From contig NZ_CP130044.1 in the NCBI RefSeq assembly GCF_030505395.1, forward strand, positions 1,287,001-1,351,000: 64,000 nucleotides of DNA. Reading direction: 5' to 3'. The stretch comes from Asticcacaulis sp. ZE23SCel15. Lineage in GTDB: Bacteria; Pseudomonadota; Alphaproteobacteria; Caulobacterales; Caulobacteraceae. Positions 12,274 to 21,089 of the stretch are shown here, piece by piece. Positions within the stretch are counted from its first letter, which is position 1, and every line of letters starts with the position of its first letter. The notes beneath the pieces were generated by a model. The model saw only the letters and a list, made by a program, of their open reading frames with translations. It was not told where the DNA came from and made no database searches. A program made the position numbers and the translations under genes.

Positions 12274-12525
12274 TCACGACCAACGGCCGTATTTATCAAT
12301 TCGCTGTTCAACTAAGGCTTCTAAATCAGGATGTGCCTTGAAAGCCCAGTGCTTAATTTCACCTATTTCGCCAAGCGCATTTGCTACTCGTGATTTCAGG
12401 GTTTCATAGTCTTTAGATGAACAATGTTGCCGAGCCATATCCAAAAGTTGGATAAGTTCTGCCCCGGCGCGAAAAGATGCGTTTAAGGCAAATTCGGCAA
12501 TCTGCTCGTCTAATTTATCCGTCAT
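12274..12525 (-). CDS. hypothetical protein inserted between pheS and pheT
   Basis: An 83-residue acidic, helical protein ([18 protein letters not shown] to IDKYGRWS) that I do not recognise. Its ATG overlaps the pheS stop by one base (TGATG), a classic arrangement for translational coupling, which argues that it is expressed. It has no signal peptide or membrane segment. The DNA is visibly richer in A/T than pheT, like the first 230 bp of pheS, which hints that this segment came in together. It could be a recent insertion in the pheST operon or a lineage-specific small protein. Confidence 0.7.
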   Translation of the reverse strand: MTDKLDEQIAEFALNASFRAGAELIQLLDMARQHCSSKDYETLKSRVANALGEIGEIKHWAFKAHPDLEALVEQRIDKYGRWS

Positions 12526-13604
12526 CAGCTCAATCCGCTTACGCTGTTCGGTGCGCTAAACCCGCTAAAGCCATAGTGGTTCAGCCAGCGGGTATCGGCT
12601 GCGAACATGTCGCGCAGATCCGGCACGCCGTATTTGAGCATGGCCAGACGATCAACACCCATACCAAAGGCAAAGCCCTGATACTCATTCGGGTCGATTC
12701 CGCAGGCGGTCAGGACATTCGGATGTACCATGCCGGAGCCCAGGATTTCCATCCACTTATCGCCGTCACCGATCTTCAATTCATTGCCGTTGCGGGTGTA
12801 GCGCACGTCCATTTCGGCTGAGGGTTCGGTGAACGGGAAGTGGTGCGGGCGAAACTGAGTGATGACCTTATCGGTCTCAAAAAAGCGGGCGATAAAGGTA
12901 TCGAACACCCATTTCAGATGACCCATGTGGATGGTTTTGTCGATCACCAGACCTTCGATCTGATGGAACATCGGGGTGTGGGTCTGATCGGAGTTGTTGC
13001 GGAACACACGGCCCGGCACGATCAGGCGAAACGGCGGCTTACCCGAAATCATGGTGCGGATCTGCACCGGCGAGGTATGGGTGCGCAGGAGTTTGCGAAC
13101 GCCGCCTTCATTGGGGTGAAAAAAGAACGTGTCGTGCATTTCCCGCGCCGGATGCTTTTCCGGAAAATTGAGCGCTGTGAAGTTATGGAAATCGTCTTCG
13201 ATATCCGGGCCTTCGGCGACTTCAAAGCCCATATCGGCGAAGATGGCGATCATCTCATCCATGACCTGCATGGTCGGGTGGACGCCGCCTTTTGGACGTG
13301 TGGCGGACGGCAGGCTGAGATCAACGCGCTCGCGCTCAAGGCGTTTGGTCAGGTGCTCGGCCTCTAAAGCGCCTTTCTGAAGAATGATAGCATTAGTTAC
13401 GGCTTGAGTAGCAGAATTAGCTGTAGCCCCTACTTCACGTTTTTGCTCAGGGGGGAGGCCTCCTAAATCACGTAAAATAAGTTTAAAAATACCCTCTTTT
13501 CCAATGTATTGGATTTTAAGAGCTTCAAGCTCCTCGATGCTGCTGCTGTTTGAAACAGCTTGCAGTGCGGCTTTCTTTTGGTCTTCAATCTTGTTCATGG
13601 ACAA
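12525..13604 (-). CDS. pheS: phenylalanyl-tRNA synthetase alpha subunit
   Basis: A 359-residue catalytic alpha subunit of PheRS. An N-terminal coiled-coil tRNA-binding arm (about residues 1-90) is followed by the class II catalytic domain. Motif 2 is recognisable as [12 protein letters not shown] and [24 protein letters not shown], and motif 3 as [17 protein letters not shown]. The coiled-coil arm is encoded by conspicuously A/T-rich DNA (about 13370-13604) compared with the catalytic part. That may mark a recombination patch. A coupled small ORF and pheT follow on the same strand. Confidence 0.97.
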
Positions 13605-13864: not shown

Positions 13865-15865
13865 TTACATCTTCAATCGTGCAGAACCAAACGCTGCCGG
13901 ATCGGACATCGATGGCTTACCGTCTTCGATATGACCGCTTAGGCGCAGTTTGCTCGCTCCCGCCGTCAGGCTCAGGTCGTACCAGTTATGGCTGATGGCC
14001 AGATCGACCGTGACGATGCGCACCTCCTGCGGCGTCAGCGCGATGGTCTGGGTGGGCGCATCGTAGGCTTCGTCTCGGATGATAACGGTCAGCGGGGCAT
14101 TAGTCAGGTTACGTAATTCCAAACCCTTGGGCCCCCACTCGCAGGTAAAGGTCGCTTGGCCTTCTAGGCGGCGATAAAAGCCGTTCGGGCCGGATATCCA
14201 CAGATTGACGGTATTTTTCAACGGCATGGCGACGGCCTTACCGGCGCTTACCGTAAAGCGCAGCGGAATGGCGGTCAGATTATCCATATCATAGACATGA
14301 AAGACGGCTGCGCCTGCGTGACTATTATTGGTCAGGACGATCTGGCCATTGTTGATCCCGCACCCCAAAGTGTAAGGTGTCGCCCGTCGCTTACGCAAGC
14401 CCTGTTCCTGAACCGGTGCAACCAGACTTTCCGGCGTAGGCGGCTTAGTCTCGCCGCCCAATTTGCGGGCGCGGTCGGCCAGTTCCGTCGTTTGCGGCAT
14501 GGCTGCAAAAAACGGCTGATCATTGGGCGTTTTGAAATCAAAACATGAAGTCAGATCGCCGCATACCGCCCGTCGCCACGGAGAGATATTGGGCTCATGC
14601 ACCCCAAACCGGGCCTCGATAAAGCGGATGACCGAGGTATGGTCGAACACTTCTGAGGCGACATAGCCGCCCTTTGACCACGGCGAAATCACATACATCG
14701 GCACGCGCGGCCCAAGGCCGTAAGGGCGGTTACGATATTGATCGTCGCCCTGATGATATTCCTGTTCCGCCCCTTCGGCAAAGCCGAGCGGCTGGCCATC
14801 AGCATCCAGTGACGGCGGGGCGGGCGGCGGCACATGGTCGAAATAGCCGTCATTTTCATCGAAATTGATCAGGAAAACCGTCCTGGCCCACACCTCCGGA
14901 TTGGCGGTCAGGGCATCAAGCACCTTGGCGGTATAGTCGGCACCTTGGGCGGGTGAGGACGTCGACGGATGCTCAGACCCCTCAGCCGTGCCGACGATCC
15001 ACGACACCTGTGGCAGCTTGCCCGACAGCACATCCGCTTTGAGTTTGTCGAGATCGCGCGTTTGGACAGAGCGCGTAGCCAGTTCAGCCAGCTTGCCACC
15101 GGTCGCTTTGTCGGCAGCGCGATAGGTCTTGAAGCCGACCAGAGGATTGTCGGTGAAGTTATCCTTCATGTCCTGATAGACCTGCCATGACACGTCCGAG
15201 GCACTCAGGCGCTCAGGATAGGTCGTCCAGTCATAGCCGCCGTGGCCCTTGGGGTCGGCTTTGAGGTCGTCATAGCCGTTGTCGATAACCGGGCCATTAG
15301 GCCCCACATTTTTACCGGTCCAGTGGAACACCCGGTTGGGATTGGTGCCCGAATGCATGGCGCAGAAATAGGCATCACACAGCGTAAAGGCATCGGCCAG
15401 CGCGTACTGGAACGGCATATCGGCGCGCGTAAAATAGCCGAGCGAATGGTTATGCTTGGCCGCGGGCCAGTTATCCATGCGGCCCTGATCCCAGGCCGCT
15501 TGCGCGTCCTTAAAGCTATGGGGGGTGCCTTCCACCCGCATCAGGCGGAAATCCCTGGCGGTATTGAGAGCAAACGGCGCGATCAGGCGTTTCGCATCGT
15601 CCGCGCGCGGCTGGGCAAAGACGGTGCGGTCATGCGCCACGGGGATGGGGAAACGATCGCCAAAGCCCTGCACCCCGTTCATCGCCCCGAAATAATGGTC
15701 GAATGAGCGGTTTTCCTGCATCAGGATGACGATGTGCTCGACATCTTTGATCGTGCCGGTGCGCACTTTCGCCGGTATATCAAGGGCGCGGGCAATGGCC
15801 GGAAAGGCAGCAAAGCCTGCGGCGGCCTTAAGCAGGGTGCGACGATTGTGGGGCATGGCGGTCAT
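13865..15865 (-). CDS. phosphocholine-specific phospholipase C, Tat-exported
   Basis: A 666-residue secreted phospholipase C of the PlcH/PlcN (acid-phosphatase-like) family, which cleaves phosphatidylcholine or sphingomyelin to release phosphocholine. The N-terminus has a twin-arginine signal, HNRRTLLKAAAGFAAFPAIARA (Arg8-Arg9). The catalytic domain starts with the family hallmark EHIVILMQENRSFDHYFG and includes HSGTNPNRVFHWTGK, INFDENDGYFDHVPPP and RVPMYVISPWSKGG. Two small C-terminal beta domains of the type found in this family complete it. In alphaproteobacteria it can serve lipid recycling under phosphate limitation; I saw no clear Pho box. Its position between pheS and rplT is an insertion into an otherwise conserved gene order. 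Confidence 0.93.
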   Translation of the reverse strand: MTAMPHNRRTLLKAAAGFAAFPAIARALDIPAKVRTGTIKDVEHIVILMQENRSFDHYFGAMNGVQGFGDRFPIPVAHDRTVFAQPRADDAKRLIAPFALNTARDFRLMRVEGTPHSFKDAQAAWDQGRMDNWPAAKHNHSLGYFTRADMPFQYALADAFTLCDAYFCAMHSGTNPNRVFHWTGKNVGPNGPVIDNGYDDLKADPKGHGGYDWTTYPERLSASDVSWQVYQDMKDNFTDNPLVGFKTYRAADKATGGKLAELATRSVQTRDLDKLKADVLSGKLPQVSWIVGTAEGSEHPSTSSPAQGADYTAKVLDALTANPEVWARTVFLINFDENDGYFDHVPPPAPPSLDADGQPLGFAEGAEQEYHQGDDQYRNRPYGLGPRVPMYVISPWSKGGYVASEVFDHTSVIRFIEARFGVHEPNISPWRRAVCGDLTSCFDFKTPNDQPFFAAMPQTTELADRARKLGGETKPPTPESLVAPVQEQGLRKRRATPYTLGCGINNGQIVLTNNSHAGAAVFHVYDMDNLTAIPLRFTVSAGKAVAMPLKNTVNLWISGPNGFYRRLEGQATFTCEWGPKGLELRNLTNAPLTVIIRDEAYDAPTQTIALTPQEVRIVTVDLAISHNWYDLSLTAGASKLRLSGHIEDGKPSMSDPAAFGSARLKM

Positions 15866-15917: not shown

Positions 15918-16196
15918 TCAGGCGGCGTTTGATTTTTTCTCTGTATCGACCTTTTCCATCTTGGCCTCATCGAAGAACGATGGGTGATGTTGACGGATAT
16001 CGTCCAGCCACACTTCGACCTGCCCCGATTTGAGGGCAAAGGGCGAGGTTTTTTTGGCAAACATGTCTTTAAAACGGCGCTTGGCGGGCATCAGGCGCAC
16101 CGCCTCGTGAGGGCCGTTCTCGCGCATCAGTTCACGAAAAATCTTGCGCGTGGCCGTCAGCTTTTGGGCAGATTTCATGATGGCACTAAGGTTCAT
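15918..16196 (-). CDS. hypothetical protein coupled to the Ntn-hydrolase-like gene
   Basis: A 92-residue basic protein (MNLSAIMKSAQKLTATRKIF to the lysine-rich tail) with no signal peptide or transmembrane segment and mostly helical character. Its ATG overlaps the stop of the upstream 431-residue gene by four bases (ATGA), so the two are almost certainly co-translated and may act together. I do not recognise the family. Given the partner, it could be an adaptor, substrate or regulator of the Ntn-hydrolase-like protein; that is inference from gene overlap only. Confidence 0.75.
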   Translation of the reverse strand: MNLSAIMKSAQKLTATRKIFRELMRENGPHEAVRLMPAKRRFKDMFAKKTSPFALKSGQVEVWLDDIRQHHPSFFDEAKMEKVDTEKKSNAA

Positions 16197-17488
16197 GTCT
16201 TGGCTCCGTCACGATAGGTCTGATAGCGGCCGCGTTCCATGCTGAGGATCGAGATCGGTCGCGCCACGCTCGACTCCCTCATCAGTTCGTGCTCGATCAC
16301 CGGAAGTTCCATGAACTTTTGCGCATAGTCGGCGAGAATACCGGCATTGGCTGAATCCAGCAATGGCCCCAGCTTAGAGCTGACCCGGTGCCAGCGCTCC
16401 ATGCGCGCCACATGCAGACCGGCGTGGGGGGCCATTTGGGCGATTGGGCGCAAAGTTTTCACCAGTTCGTCGGACAGTTTGCGGTTGGTCTGGCCGATAG
16501 TACCGCCGATTTCCTTGATCACCGCCAGCAGGATATCTTCGGTGGCGTGCAGGGCGTGGTGCTCATATTCAGGCATAGCCCCGGTCAAAAAGGCGCGCGT
16601 CAGGTCATCCTGGGCATAGGTTTCAACGATGACGGGTTCTGAGGCCGCACTGGGGCTGTCGCTGCGCAATATGCGGTATTTCAGCGTGCCGCCAAACGCG
16701 CCGATAAACTCCATCGACACCATGGCGGGCAGGGCATCTGCGGCCCCGAAACCGGCGATCACCAGCCCGGTCGTATAGCCATAGGTATGTTCCGGCAACC
16801 ACTCCAGCAGCAGGGATTCGGCCGCCAGTTTCAGCACCTCACGCACCAGCGATTCCGGATACTGCGCCCCCTCAAAAATGCGGCCCATTTCCTCGCTTAA
16901 GGTCGTGCCGATATGGGCATAGATATAGTCTGTCAAGGCTTGTCCGGCCTCGATCCGGCGGCGGGGCAGGGGATCGCGTGTCTTGCCCGTATGATCGGTG
17001 GCCGTGATCGGATCGACCGCCTCAAACAGAATATCCTCACGCAAGGCGTTCAAGGCCCGTGTGGCGATATCGGCATTGACGGGACGGGCGAACTCCCAGC
17101 CCAGCTTGACCATACCCGCCGCGTAATCGAGCAGAAAGCCACGGATATAGGCGGAAAAACTCTGTTGTTCGGCGTTGGTATGGGGCGTCAGGCCCAGCCC
17201 CGTGATGTCTGACAATCCGGCAATCACGGCCTTGGCATAGGCCTTGACCGAGCCGATATCGGGTTTGTGCTGAAGTTTGAACTGGCCGAACACTGTCCTC
17301 CACGGCAGGCCGCCGAAGTCTCCGCCGCCATAGATCATGGCCGCTATCGGCCCGCTGTCATCAATGACGAAGATCTTTTCGACACCGGATTGCGACACAC
17401 GATAAGCCTCGCCGTCGGAAATGGTGACCGCGCTGTCGGCCCCCAAAACGACGGCCTCAAGATTCATCAGTAATACTTCGCTGGTCAC
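16193..17488 (-). CDS. proteasome/HslV-like Ntn-hydrolase candidate
   Basis: A 431-residue cytoplasmic protein starting at GTG 17488 behind GGGGGAG. If Met1 is removed, Thr2 becomes the N-terminal residue. The stretch VVLGADSAVT then places Asp at mature position 17, the same Thr1-Asp17 spacing as in proteasome beta subunits and HslV, and VEKIFVI supplies a Lys at mature position 37 (Lys33 in proteasomes, with a short loop insertion). It is followed by a glycine-rich AAMIYGGGDFGG strand, as in the Ntn fold. The remaining 370 or so residues are not recognised and make it much larger than HslV (about 180) or Anbu (about 240). It overlaps a 92-residue partner gene by 4 bp. The fold assignment is inference from motif spacing. 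Confidence 0.6.
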   Translation of the reverse strand: MTSEVLLMNLEAVVLGADSAVTISDGEAYRVSQSGVEKIFVIDDSGPIAAMIYGGGDFGGLPWRTVFGQFKLQHKPDIGSVKAYAKAVIAGLSDITGLGLTPHTNAEQQSFSAYIRGFLLDYAAGMVKLGWEFARPVNADIATRALNALREDILFEAVDPITATDHTGKTRDPLPRRRIEAGQALTDYIYAHIGTTLSEEMGRIFEGAQYPESLVREVLKLAAESLLLEWLPEHTYGYTTGLVIAGFGAADALPAMVSMEFIGAFGGTLKYRILRSDSPSAASEPVIVETYAQDDLTRAFLTGAMPEYEHHALHATEDILLAVIKEIGGTIGQTNRKLSDELVKTLRPIAQMAPHAGLHVARMERWHRVSSKLGPLLDSANAGILADYAQKFMELPVIEHELMRESSVARPISILSMERGRYQTYRDGAKT

Positions 17489-17570: not shown

Positions 17571-17603
17571 AAAAAACCCCGCCATCCTAAGATGACGGGG
17601 TTT
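17571..17603 (-). terminator. Rho-independent terminator after rplT
   Basis: On the minus strand the hairpin AACCCCG-TCATC...GATGG-CGGGGTT (17575-17603) is followed by a run of six T (complement of 17571-17576). It sits 22 nt downstream of the rplT stop. Confidence 0.85.
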
Positions 17604-19756: not shown

Positions 19757-19787
19757 TTGACACAATTTACATGTTCTTGTTATGTTC
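19757..19787 (+). promoter_or_regulatory. SOS (LexA) box and promoter of the Y-family polymerase
   Basis: GTTC-TTGTTAT-GTTC at 19773-19787 is an exact match to the alphaproteobacterial LexA operator GTTC-N7-GTTC. It overlaps the candidate -10 region (TATGTT, 19781-19786) of a promoter whose -35 is TTGACA at 19757-19762. The placement 22 bp before the start codon is ideal for repression, so the gene should be induced by DNA damage. Confidence 0.85.
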
Positions 19788-19808
19788 TTAACCGAAAGGT
19801 GCAAGAAC

Positions 19809-21089
19809 ATGCCCGTAGTCCGCCCCGAAGACGACATAAACTTAAGTAACCTTAACTGGTTATATCTCGACATGAATTCCTATTTTGCCAGTGTCGAGCA
19901 GCAGGACGACGTGCGTCTGCGGGGCCGTCCGATGATTGTGGTGCCGGTGACCTCGGACTATACCTCGGCCATCGCCGCCAGTTATGAGGCGAAAGCGCTG
20001 GGGATTAAAACCGGCACCAGCGTCAAGGAGGCGCGGGCGCTGTGTCCGGCGATCCAGATCCGGGAGGCGCGGCCGGATCGTTATGTTCAGGTGCATAACC
20101 GGATATTGGAAGAGGTGGATCGCACTTTGCCAATCGAAAAGATCTGCTCGATTGACGAGGTCGCCTGTCGGTTGACGATGGGGCAACGCCATGAGGCGGC
20201 CGCACGCGCCTTGGGCTATCGCATCCAGCAGAATATCATGGCCAATATCGGCGAATGTCTGAGGTCGTCTATTGGGATTGCGCCGTCACGGATGCTGGCT
20301 AAGACCGCGGCGGATATCGTGAAACCCTTGGGGCTGACCGTTTTGCGTCAGGACGAACTGCCGGGGAAGTTGCTGGATCTGAAGCTGAACGACCTGCCGG
20401 GGGTGGGGGCGTCGATGAACCTGCGGCTGAATAAGGCCGGGGTTTTTACCGTGGCGGAGCTATATGCCTTGCCCGCGCCGCGTCTGCGTCAGATCTGGGG
20501 CGGGATCGGTGGCGATAATTTCTGGTACAGCCTGCATGGCATCGATCCGGCAGAGTTGGAGACCATTCGCGGTTCGATCAGCCACTCCCATGTGCTGGCC
20601 TCTGATCTGAGGCCGATTGAGGCGGCGCGCGGGGTGGCCCGACGGCTGGTGGCCAAATGCGGATCGCGGCTGCGGCGCATGGGCTATAAGTGCGGTGGCC
20701 TGCACCTGTCGATTCGCGCCGACAGGGGCGATGGCCGCGCTCAGGCCGAGGCTCATTTCGATGTCACTGCCGACAGCTTTCGGATGATTGAGGTCATGGA
20801 CGGCTTGTGGCGGCACTGTGCCACCAAACTGAACAGCCCGCGCGTGAAAAAGGTGTCGATTGTCTGCACGCGCATCATTCCGGCTGATCTGCCGCCTGAC
20901 CTGTTTGGCTGGACGCCGGAAGGGGCCGAGGATGCGCGCCACATGCGGGTGCTAAAGGCGCTGGATGGGTTAAATCAGCGTTACGGCAAGGACGCGGTTA
21001 CCATCGGTCCGCGCACCAAGGTGCATGGTTTTGTCGGTGCGAAGGTCGCCTTTAATAGGATACCGGAAAACGCCGAGTTCTGGGAGTGA
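19809..21089 (+). CDS. Y-family translesion DNA polymerase (DinB-like)
   Basis: A 426-residue error-prone polymerase that copies past damaged bases. The palm has the metal-binding residues Asp21 (LYLDMNSYFASVEQ) and Asp116-Glu117 (CSIDEVACRL). The fingers (TSAIAASYEAKALGIKTG), the thumb helix-hairpin-helix (LNDLPGVGASMNLRL) and the little-finger domain follow. All catalytic residues are present, so it is not an inactive ImuB-type protein. The ATG at 19809 is chosen: an in-frame ATG at 19782 lies inside the LexA box. Divergent from the MFS gene. No imuA or dnaE2 is nearby. Close to Pol IV; a symbol is not assigned because several paralogues are usual in this class. Confidence 0.92.
   Translation: MPVVRPEDDINLSNLNWLYLDMNSYFASVEQQDDVRLRGRPMIVVPVTSDYTSAIAASYEAKALGIKTGTSVKEARALCPAIQIREARPDRYVQVHNRILEEVDRTLPIEKICSIDEVACRLTMGQRHEAAARALGYRIQQNIMANIGECLRSSIGIAPSRMLAKTAADIVKPLGLTVLRQDELPGKLLDLKLNDLPGVGASMNLRLNKAGVFTVAELYALPAPRLRQIWGGIGGDNFWYSLHGIDPAELETIRGSISHSHVLASDLRPIEAARGVARRLVAKCGSRLRRMGYKCGGLHLSIRADRGDGRAQAEAHFDVTADSFRMIEVMDGLWRHCATKLNSPRVKKVSIVCTRIIPADLPPDLFGWTPEGAEDARHMRVLKALDGLNQRYGKDAVTIGPRTKVHGFVGAKVAFNRIPENAEFWE

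Follow-up and report, generated by a model that had tools for sequence, protein, structure and literature searches.

Two overlapping minus-strand genes of Asticcacaulis sp. ZE23SCel15, found in the window (i.e. the whole stretch of 64,000 nucleotides that was analysed), form a cassette that is gained and lost as one unit. The upstream gene very probably encodes a threonine enzyme of the proteasome-like class, as predicted from its residues and modelled fold, and the downstream gene encodes a small basic protein. On balance, we favour reading the pair as a predicted non-barrel threonine enzyme with its small partner, kept together in a single cassette that relatives in mobile elements carry as cargo.

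An enzyme gene and a small partner gene between rplT and pheS

The source genome is a single contig of 3.77 Mb, and the nearest named relative of the enzyme gene is that of Asticcacaulis endophyticus (98% identity). Read along the minus strand, the order is rplT, the enzyme ORF, the small ORF, a phospholipase-C-like gene and pheS. The ORF of the proteasome-like N-terminal-Thr protein (16193–17488, minus strand, stop codon included) has a GTG start and encodes 431 amino acids. The small basic partner ORF (15918–16196, minus strand) has an ATG start and encodes 92 amino acids; the stop of the first and the start of the second share an ATGA overlap. These features had all been described in an earlier, sequence-only reading and were borne out, with both ORFs on the minus strand. 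The same reading had the pair inserted between pheS (12525–13604, minus strand) and rplT (ribosomal protein L20; 17626–17988, minus strand), the upstream neighbour of the enzyme. The pair does sit between these genes, but so does its downstream neighbour, which encodes a phospholipase-C-like phosphoesterase (13865–15865, minus strand). Elsewhere in the window we noted an 83-amino acid ORF without a Pfam match between pheS and a pheT-like ORF (12274–12525, minus strand), and a 435-amino acid Y-family DNA polymerase-like ORF (impB/mucB/samB; 19782–21089, plus strand).

Between rplT and the enzyme gene there is a hairpin of 13 pairs that runs into a T run (17574–17603, minus strand; z = −5.16 for the 71-nt fold). 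This is probably the rplT terminator and, with such a terminator-like hairpin between rplT and the enzyme, the pair is probably a transcription unit of its own. A pattern scan also gave a terminator-like site at 17574–17603, but the total for the region was 3 against 3.4 in shuffles; taken as a whole, simple scans of the region for promoters and terminators did no better than chance.

Gain and loss of the two genes

Relatives of the window's small protein were found in 7 of 149 genomes of the family, all of them among the 15 that have the enzyme. The other eight enzyme-positive genomes gave no match; where examined, the small ORF that they have in this position is a more divergent one. In 25 genomes of the Asticcacaulis genus, the position directly after rplT is occupied by the enzyme gene (8 genomes), by pheS (10) or by the phospholipase-like gene (6), with a single genome showing none of the three motifs. 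The phospholipase-C-like gene, directly after rplT in these six, is outside the cassette. At the 17 genus loci without the enzyme at the rplT site, there was no match to the small gene better than E = 0.28. As computed here, the enzyme and the small gene are gained and lost as one cassette; given shared ancestry, these counts represent few independent events. From this co-inheritance, we consider it highly probable that the two proteins are functionally paired.

Residues of the predicted active centre

Members of the proteasome-like family have an N-terminal threonine (or serine) nucleophile, Asp17, Lys33 and an oxyanion-hole Gly47. A start methionine ahead of a threonine is removed. In the window protein, loss of the methionine would expose Thr2 (codon 17483–17485, minus strand) as the nucleophile; Asp18 (Thr+16; 17435–17437, minus strand) and Lys38 (Thr+36; 17375–17377, minus strand) would then complete a proteasome-type centre. 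The threonine as residue 2, the aspartate exactly 16 residues later (within GADSAVT), the lysine within VEKIFVI and the glycine-rich strand (MIYGGGDFGG), as pointed out in the sequence-only reading, are all present.

The conservation of these residues was followed in two alignments, A1 (19 rows) and A5 (48 rows), which share the window row and whose rows are related by descent. Thr2 and Asp18 are present in 19/19 and 48/48 rows, 16 residues apart throughout. The sequence-only reading had proposed to check whether the three residues are invariant among homologues, and these two bore it out. For Lys38, invariance holds in 48/48 rows of A5 but in only 18/19 rows of A1, where the exception (L021) has arginine, and has valine in place of Ser19. 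The spacing from threonine to lysine varies between 31 and 37, being 36 in the window protein and 32 in proteasome numbering. L021 is, with L019 and L020, one of the second, divergent enzyme copies seen in three Caulobacteraceae genomes (G124, G020 and G069). Both Thr2 and Asp18 were kept in 28/28 rows of a count made over 30 rows minus two truncated copies (L028 and L031).

Among viral loci, Thr2 is kept in 95/95 whose frame reaches a stop, two of these frames (L104 and L108) being shortened; 96 loci entered this count, from which L093 was dropped as it has no stop, and L148, L152 and L154 were not entered. Thr2 and Lys38 are absent from all peptide patterns used to search for viral loci. Asp18 lies inside one of the two patterns that found most of these loci, so that its presence there is not an independent test.

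Two further residues are as conserved as the catalytic ones, namely Glu4 (18/19 and 48/48 rows) and Asn9 (19/19 and 48/48 rows); these two residues (within 17446–17485, minus strand) have no obvious proteasome counterpart. The candidate for the oxyanion-hole Gly47, placed by spacing only, is Gly54, which is glycine in 10/19 and 39/48 rows and otherwise mostly asparagine.

A predicted proteasome-like core with two helical insertions

One AlphaFold2 model, built from 48 alignment rows, gave a mean pLDDT of 79.7 and a pTM of 0.77, with residues 159–180 under 50. The N-terminal part of the model has strands at residues 4–8, 13–18, 21–24, 29–32, 39–43 and 48–54, followed by helices at 63–73, 81–93 and 95–98 and by further helices within 105–227. 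Later strands lie at 240–246, 255–265, 268–277 and 287–291 and are followed by a helix at 295–302, helices within 306–378, a helix at 382–402 and finally strands at 412–418 and 421–426. This order of elements (S1–S6, H1–H2, S7–S9, H3–H4, S10–S11) is the proteasome-beta order as given in the excerpts of Fuchs, Alva and Lupas (2021; PMC8665760). A four-layer alpha-beta-beta-alpha sandwich is predicted on the strength of the element order in this single model.

In the model, the core is interrupted by two long helical insertions. Insertion 1 (residues 105–227; 16808–17176, minus strand) follows H1/H2, at a position termed the pore-loop site in the excerpts of PMC8665760, and contains the residues with pLDDT under 50; insertion 2 (residues 306–378; 16355–16573, minus strand) lies between H3 and H4. 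The sequence-only reading had proposed a self-standing proteasome-like enzyme with a long C-terminal extension. The protein stands as a candidate Ntn hydrolase with conserved threonine and aspartate, but the extension had to be abandoned: the core strands of the model span residues 4 to 426, and the extra mass is that of the two internal insertions. The last core strands (residues 412–426; 16211–16255, minus strand) come directly after a conserved V-x-x-P motif, in which V408 and P411 are conserved and which reads VGGPID in most mobile relatives.

Insertions at such sites are argued, in the excerpts of PMC8665760, to hinder the assembly of rings or double rings. With one insertion predicted at the pore-loop site and the other separating H3 from H4, an HslV- or proteasome-like double ring is unlikely, and the enzyme would probably be a monomer or a small oligomer. 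It would probably act on few specific targets, in the manner of connectase, rather than as a general shredder of proteins.

Matches to proteasome families

Searches of Pfam, NCBIfam and PADLOC with the window protein gave no match, and the PDB gave nothing convincing. The protein matched phrog_5990 (PHROGs v4, function unknown) at 1.2e-29, and phage relatives matched the same PHROG at up to 6.8e-152. Pfam Proteasome (PF00227) matched 8 of 47 relatives (best 2.4e-4), and CNOT11, which we take to be a surely unrelated family, matched 5 of the 47 too (best 9.6e-4). A match of one relative to Pfam Proteasome was seen at 0.037, and a Providencia phage relative matched a PHROG of HslV-like peptidases at 0.0033.

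When a profile with the insertions excised was compared to the PDB, the only matches at E ≤ 1 were three proteasome-beta sequences, one of them 1PMA (0.0065–0.0079). The aligned pieces lay at the N-terminal threonine and at the GG-IDVAVI strand of proteasome beta, to which the last-strand region of the enzyme aligns; taken one by one they gave E values of 7 and worse, and the 0.0065 is reached by their sum. PF00227 was matched by 3 of 12 insert-excised members (best 0.0016). When the insertions were kept in the profile, proteasome chains of the PDB came up only at E = 0.42 and worse, among unrelated proteins. These matches lend modest support to the predicted proteasome-like fold.

A small ORF follows nearly every copy of the enzyme gene

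In Caulobacteraceae, each of the 17 copies examined is accompanied by a small ORF whose start lies between −27 and +7 nt relative to the enzyme stop. At viral loci, an ORF of 30–130 amino acids with its start between −40 and +30 nt relative to that stop was present at 43/43 distinct loci, compared to 50/124 control genes (i.e. other genes of at least 250 codons from the same loci). An ATG together with a ribosome-binding motif was seen at the downstream ORF of 29/43 viral loci and of 21/124 control genes. This test left out L108 and L137 and skipped L110 and L147, which have too little 3′ sequence. A looser downstream-ORF test was passed by 23 of 25 other loci, but by 72 of 126 control genes as well. 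As this test does not discriminate, the evidence at these loci is the likeness by eye between the small ORFs of related loci (L201/L202, L203/L204 and L206/L207), which have gaps of 5 to 151 nt. The E. coli copy is followed by an unannotated small ORF of 49 amino acids resembling that of L075. The sequence-only reading had asked whether the 92-residue gene always follows the enzyme. A small gene does so in the Caulobacteraceae and viral copies counted here, but a downstream small ORF is absent at L025 (where the C-terminus of the enzyme is longer) and at L209, and is doubtful at L211.

The pn/ps values of the small genes, calculated for 48 pairs in six groups, were between 0.14 and 0.69 and above that of the enzyme in 46/48 pairs; the ratios are rough, as the viral groups are nearly saturated for synonymous change. 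Values in this range indicate that the small genes are under selection as proteins. In the small-partner set (A8), 138 of 140 were used and two left out. The 51 distinct small proteins are 34–151 amino acids long (up to 194 amino acids in the comparison that includes L201–L207) and 46 of them have a net positive charge, the median being +5. A single family containing all of the small partners was rejected: with eight group models, no more than two small proteins scored above the best of 1160 shuffled decoys, namely L072, which is an obvious gamma relative, and L138 (9.5 versus 8.6 bits). Since small proteins of different lineages have no common sequence, a single partner function is not established.

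The dipeptide [FYWLM]F occurs in 29 of the 51 small proteins, where 17.9 would be expected. Aromatic residues are enriched over the last 12 residues, where 1/500 shuffles reached the same level, but over the last 16 there is no enrichment (104/500). A shared aromatic motif, proposed post hoc and from related rows, is only a lead. The small proteins of L201–L207, which come from several alphaproteobacterial lineages, have a basic aromatic tail (e.g. RRGFFGLFRRK or KKGFLRRLFGAR) that is possibly a docking or membrane-binding tail.

Relatives in chromosomes, phages and plasmids

Enzyme relatives were found in 15/149 family genomes, 18/385 class genomes and 10/398 phylum genomes (samples that overlap and include the source genome), as well as in 13/50,697 phage records and 10/72,556 plasmid records. 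A single DNA query, with 30% of its length covered, detected relatives in 9/5,426 E. coli genomes. From IMG/VR, one alignment gave 156 stretches, of which 80 were kept, and another gave 19 loci, with one contig common to both. A viral scan with the Caulobacteraceae alignment A4 returned 60 stretches and no relative, a viral scan with the full alignment A1 gave no conserved stretch, and a single-protein scan of genome contigs found only three near-identical loci. In an 80-row tree, rooted only at its midpoint, nine Caulobacteraceae rows form one clade (100/100). With a clade of its own, and no viral relative of that clade found, the window's own branch is chromosomal.

Thinning of the viral proteins kept 47 of 95, after which L108 was taken out (leaving 46 in A5 and A6); L104 was too short at 173 amino acids. 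L208, whose frame is interrupted, was left out of the tree, the small-ORF comparison and the looser downstream test. The shortened or interrupted frames of L104, L108 and L208 suggest that some copies are decaying.

The neighbours of 15 other bacterial copies include the citrate synthase, cyclophilin, tgt/queA and gyrA families. The commonest Pfam families near chromosomal copies are citrate synthase, histidine kinase, cyclophilin and transport families (best 25 of 148). The commonest PADLOC families match four and three neighbours and look generic, the others matching one or two (best 25 of 42 families). Defence islands around the chromosomal copies were rejected on the basis of 138 neighbours at 15 loci.

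In phages and related elements, the enzyme gene is found at a variety of positions. It is the last gene of one Streptococcus satellite and the second-last, before a 58-amino acid gene, of another; in a Streptococcus prophage it is again last, after the lysis genes. It lies between antiterminator Q and the lysis genes both in a Providencia phage and, against the flanking strand, in an E. coli lambdoid prophage. In a Stenotrophomonas phage it is beside the lysis genes on the opposite strand to them, in a Porphyromonas phage it is among structural genes, and in a Pantoea plasmid it adjoins phage tail and capsid genes. The most frequent PHROGs among viral neighbours are repressors and regulators, Q-like antiterminators, HNH endonuclease, holin and endolysin, and the PADLOC matches are scattered, mostly to regulators and methyltransferases (set A9; 127 of 174 listed neighbours used, with 23 of the others left out as likely spurious). 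The interval from Q to the lysis genes and the repressor region are the usual sites of lambdoid cargo genes. The relatives in phages, satellites and plasmids are accessory cargo, whereas in Caulobacteraceae and some other alphaproteobacteria the pair resides in the chromosome.

We also noted a DNA methyltransferase gene close to the enzyme in the E. coli lambdoid prophage (L192; 10354–11400 and 12001–13284) and in the Providencia phage (L023; 3406–4452 and 5001–6296). Rhizobial plasmid copies (L025, L028, L029 and L030) lie near multiubiquitin, ThiF and, for L030, DUF6527 genes, in two arrangements.

Possible functions of the cassette

The small basic protein would act with the enzyme, most likely by restraining or directing it or by being its dedicated substrate; the presentation of targets is a further possible role. 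That prophages and satellites carry the pair at cargo positions points to competition between mobile elements. A role of the pair against phages or in such competition can be put forward tentatively, and is less likely than not. Its specific form is doubtful: a mobile conflict module on prophages, phage satellites and plasmids, resident in some alphaproteobacterial chromosomes, in which the hypervariable small partner would direct the enzyme, or hold it back, in its action on rival phages or elements. If true, this would be the first case in which a member of the proteasome family serves bacterial immunity or competition between elements.

A related explanation, which we think rather improbable, is that the pair is toxin-antitoxin-like or acts in abortive infection, with an enzyme that harms the cell or the phage and a small protein that keeps it in check, in the service of mobile-element competition. 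The pair is a two-gene unit with translational coupling, its small partner diverges fast (with pn/ps above the enzyme's in nearly all pairs), it is last or second-last in two satellite phages and last in one prophage, and its viral neighbours are often repressors, Q-like antiterminators and lysis genes. Against this, the enzyme gene comes first and the small gene second, the window's clade belongs to chromosomes and did not turn up in viral contigs, and the pair has no PADLOC match. Among the first 25 families of each neighbour tally, no known defence family was recurrent; there were single matches, for example to a type IV restriction enzyme, to PDC-S68 and to HEC-06. A further possibility is a self-compartmentalizing protease, in which HslV- or BPH-like rings break down unfolded proteins. 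The small gene would then be incidental or code for an assembly factor, and the chromosomal copies would serve protein quality control. Such a protease would have the same catalytic residues and element order, and several alphaproteobacterial copies do lie among core-metabolism gene families. It is nevertheless unlikely, given that the model has insertions at two inter-subunit sites (argued to be ring-hindering in the excerpts of PMC8665760), that the enzyme is patchily present in the family (15/149 genomes) and that it occupies cargo positions in phages and satellites.

The rhizobial plasmids suggest yet another role, in which the enzyme would do the degrading for a bacterial ubiquitin-like system with multiubiquitin and ThiF. 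Both genes are found at most about 4 kb away from the enzyme gene in 4/5 inspected rhizobial plasmid records, in two arrangements, the exception being a truncated copy. However, among 385 class genomes, multiubiquitin is present in 11 and the enzyme in 18, and both occur only in G152, on different contigs; the source genome gave no multiubiquitin match, in a search that gave none in control genomes either. Shared islands probably explain the rhizobial cases. As the association was confined to rhizobial plasmids, a general connection with multiubiquitin was rejected, and we regard this role as highly improbable. The non-barrel enzyme with its small partner, carried as cargo in mobile relatives, remains the reading that we favour.

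Comparison with known systems

The enzyme resembles the 20S proteasome beta subunit and HslV in its predicted threonine nucleophile, the aspartate at +16, the lysine about 32–36 residues later and the element order of the model. Unlike these proteins, it has two large helical insertions and no propeptide, the threonine being residue 2. Anbu has an (S/T)VGxPxD-like motif near the C-terminus that is in register with the enzyme, but the extracted Anbu sequences are about 250 residues long, without such insertions. The sequence-only reading, which on grounds of size had called the protein neither HslV nor Anbu, was right on both counts. Membership of HslV was rejected because the enzyme has 431 residues rather than about 175–190 and because its profile gave a probability of 1.2–3.5% against a shallow HslV alignment, in register at the Thr-Asp-Lys region; moreover, another Proteasome-family gene of the genome is taken to be HslV. 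Membership of Anbu was rejected similarly (431 versus about 250 residues), the probability against a shallow Anbu alignment being 1.9–8.2%, in register at the VGxPxD region. The pair differs from catalogued defence systems in that no PADLOC family (2023 library) matches the enzyme or the small protein.

Connectase, an archaeal protein ligase, is described in the excerpts of PMC8665760 as proteasome-like, thought to be ringless and having specific substrates, a likeness to what is proposed here. Its anatomy is different and was rejected for the enzyme: connectase is without H1–H2 and has an insertion between S3 and S4, whereas the model has H1–H2 and no two-helix S3/S4 insertion. Should the enzyme prove to be a protease or ligase of narrow specificity that works with a short protein, it could, like connectase, become a tool for protein engineering.

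The closest correspondence is to one of the 22 new proteasome-like groups reported by Fuchs, Alva and Lupas (2021; excerpts of PMC8665760). PMI-4 (‘Proteasome homolog with Multiple Insertions 4’) is placed there in group II, linked to WPH and Anbu. PMI-3 and PMI-4 each have insertions after H1/H2 and between H3/H4, and of the two only PMI-4 is listed, in these excerpts, for phages and Firmicutes. The enzyme family shares with PMI-4 a proteasome-like core, both long insertions and an occurrence in many bacterial phyla and phages; relatives in Streptococcus, Enterococcus, a Porphyromonas phage and Proteobacteria fit the PMI-4 range in phages, Firmicutes and Proteobacteria. As it has both insertions, and as only PMI-4 of the two is listed for phages and Firmicutes, the family is probably of the PMI-4 type, matched to it by description only. 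The enzyme type has therefore probably been catalogued already, without a function, and no functional study of the family was recognized among the open-licence PMC titles listed. The difference from PMI-4 lies in the gene context: the excerpts of PMC8665760 report none suggestive of function for the new groups, PMI-4 included, whereas in the present family nearly every copy has a small partner gene behind it. The cassette of two genes, and the way in which it travels as cargo, appear not to have been described before. A partner that is gained and lost with the enzyme and varies between lineages offers, through co-expression of the two proteins, a concrete handle on the enzyme's target.
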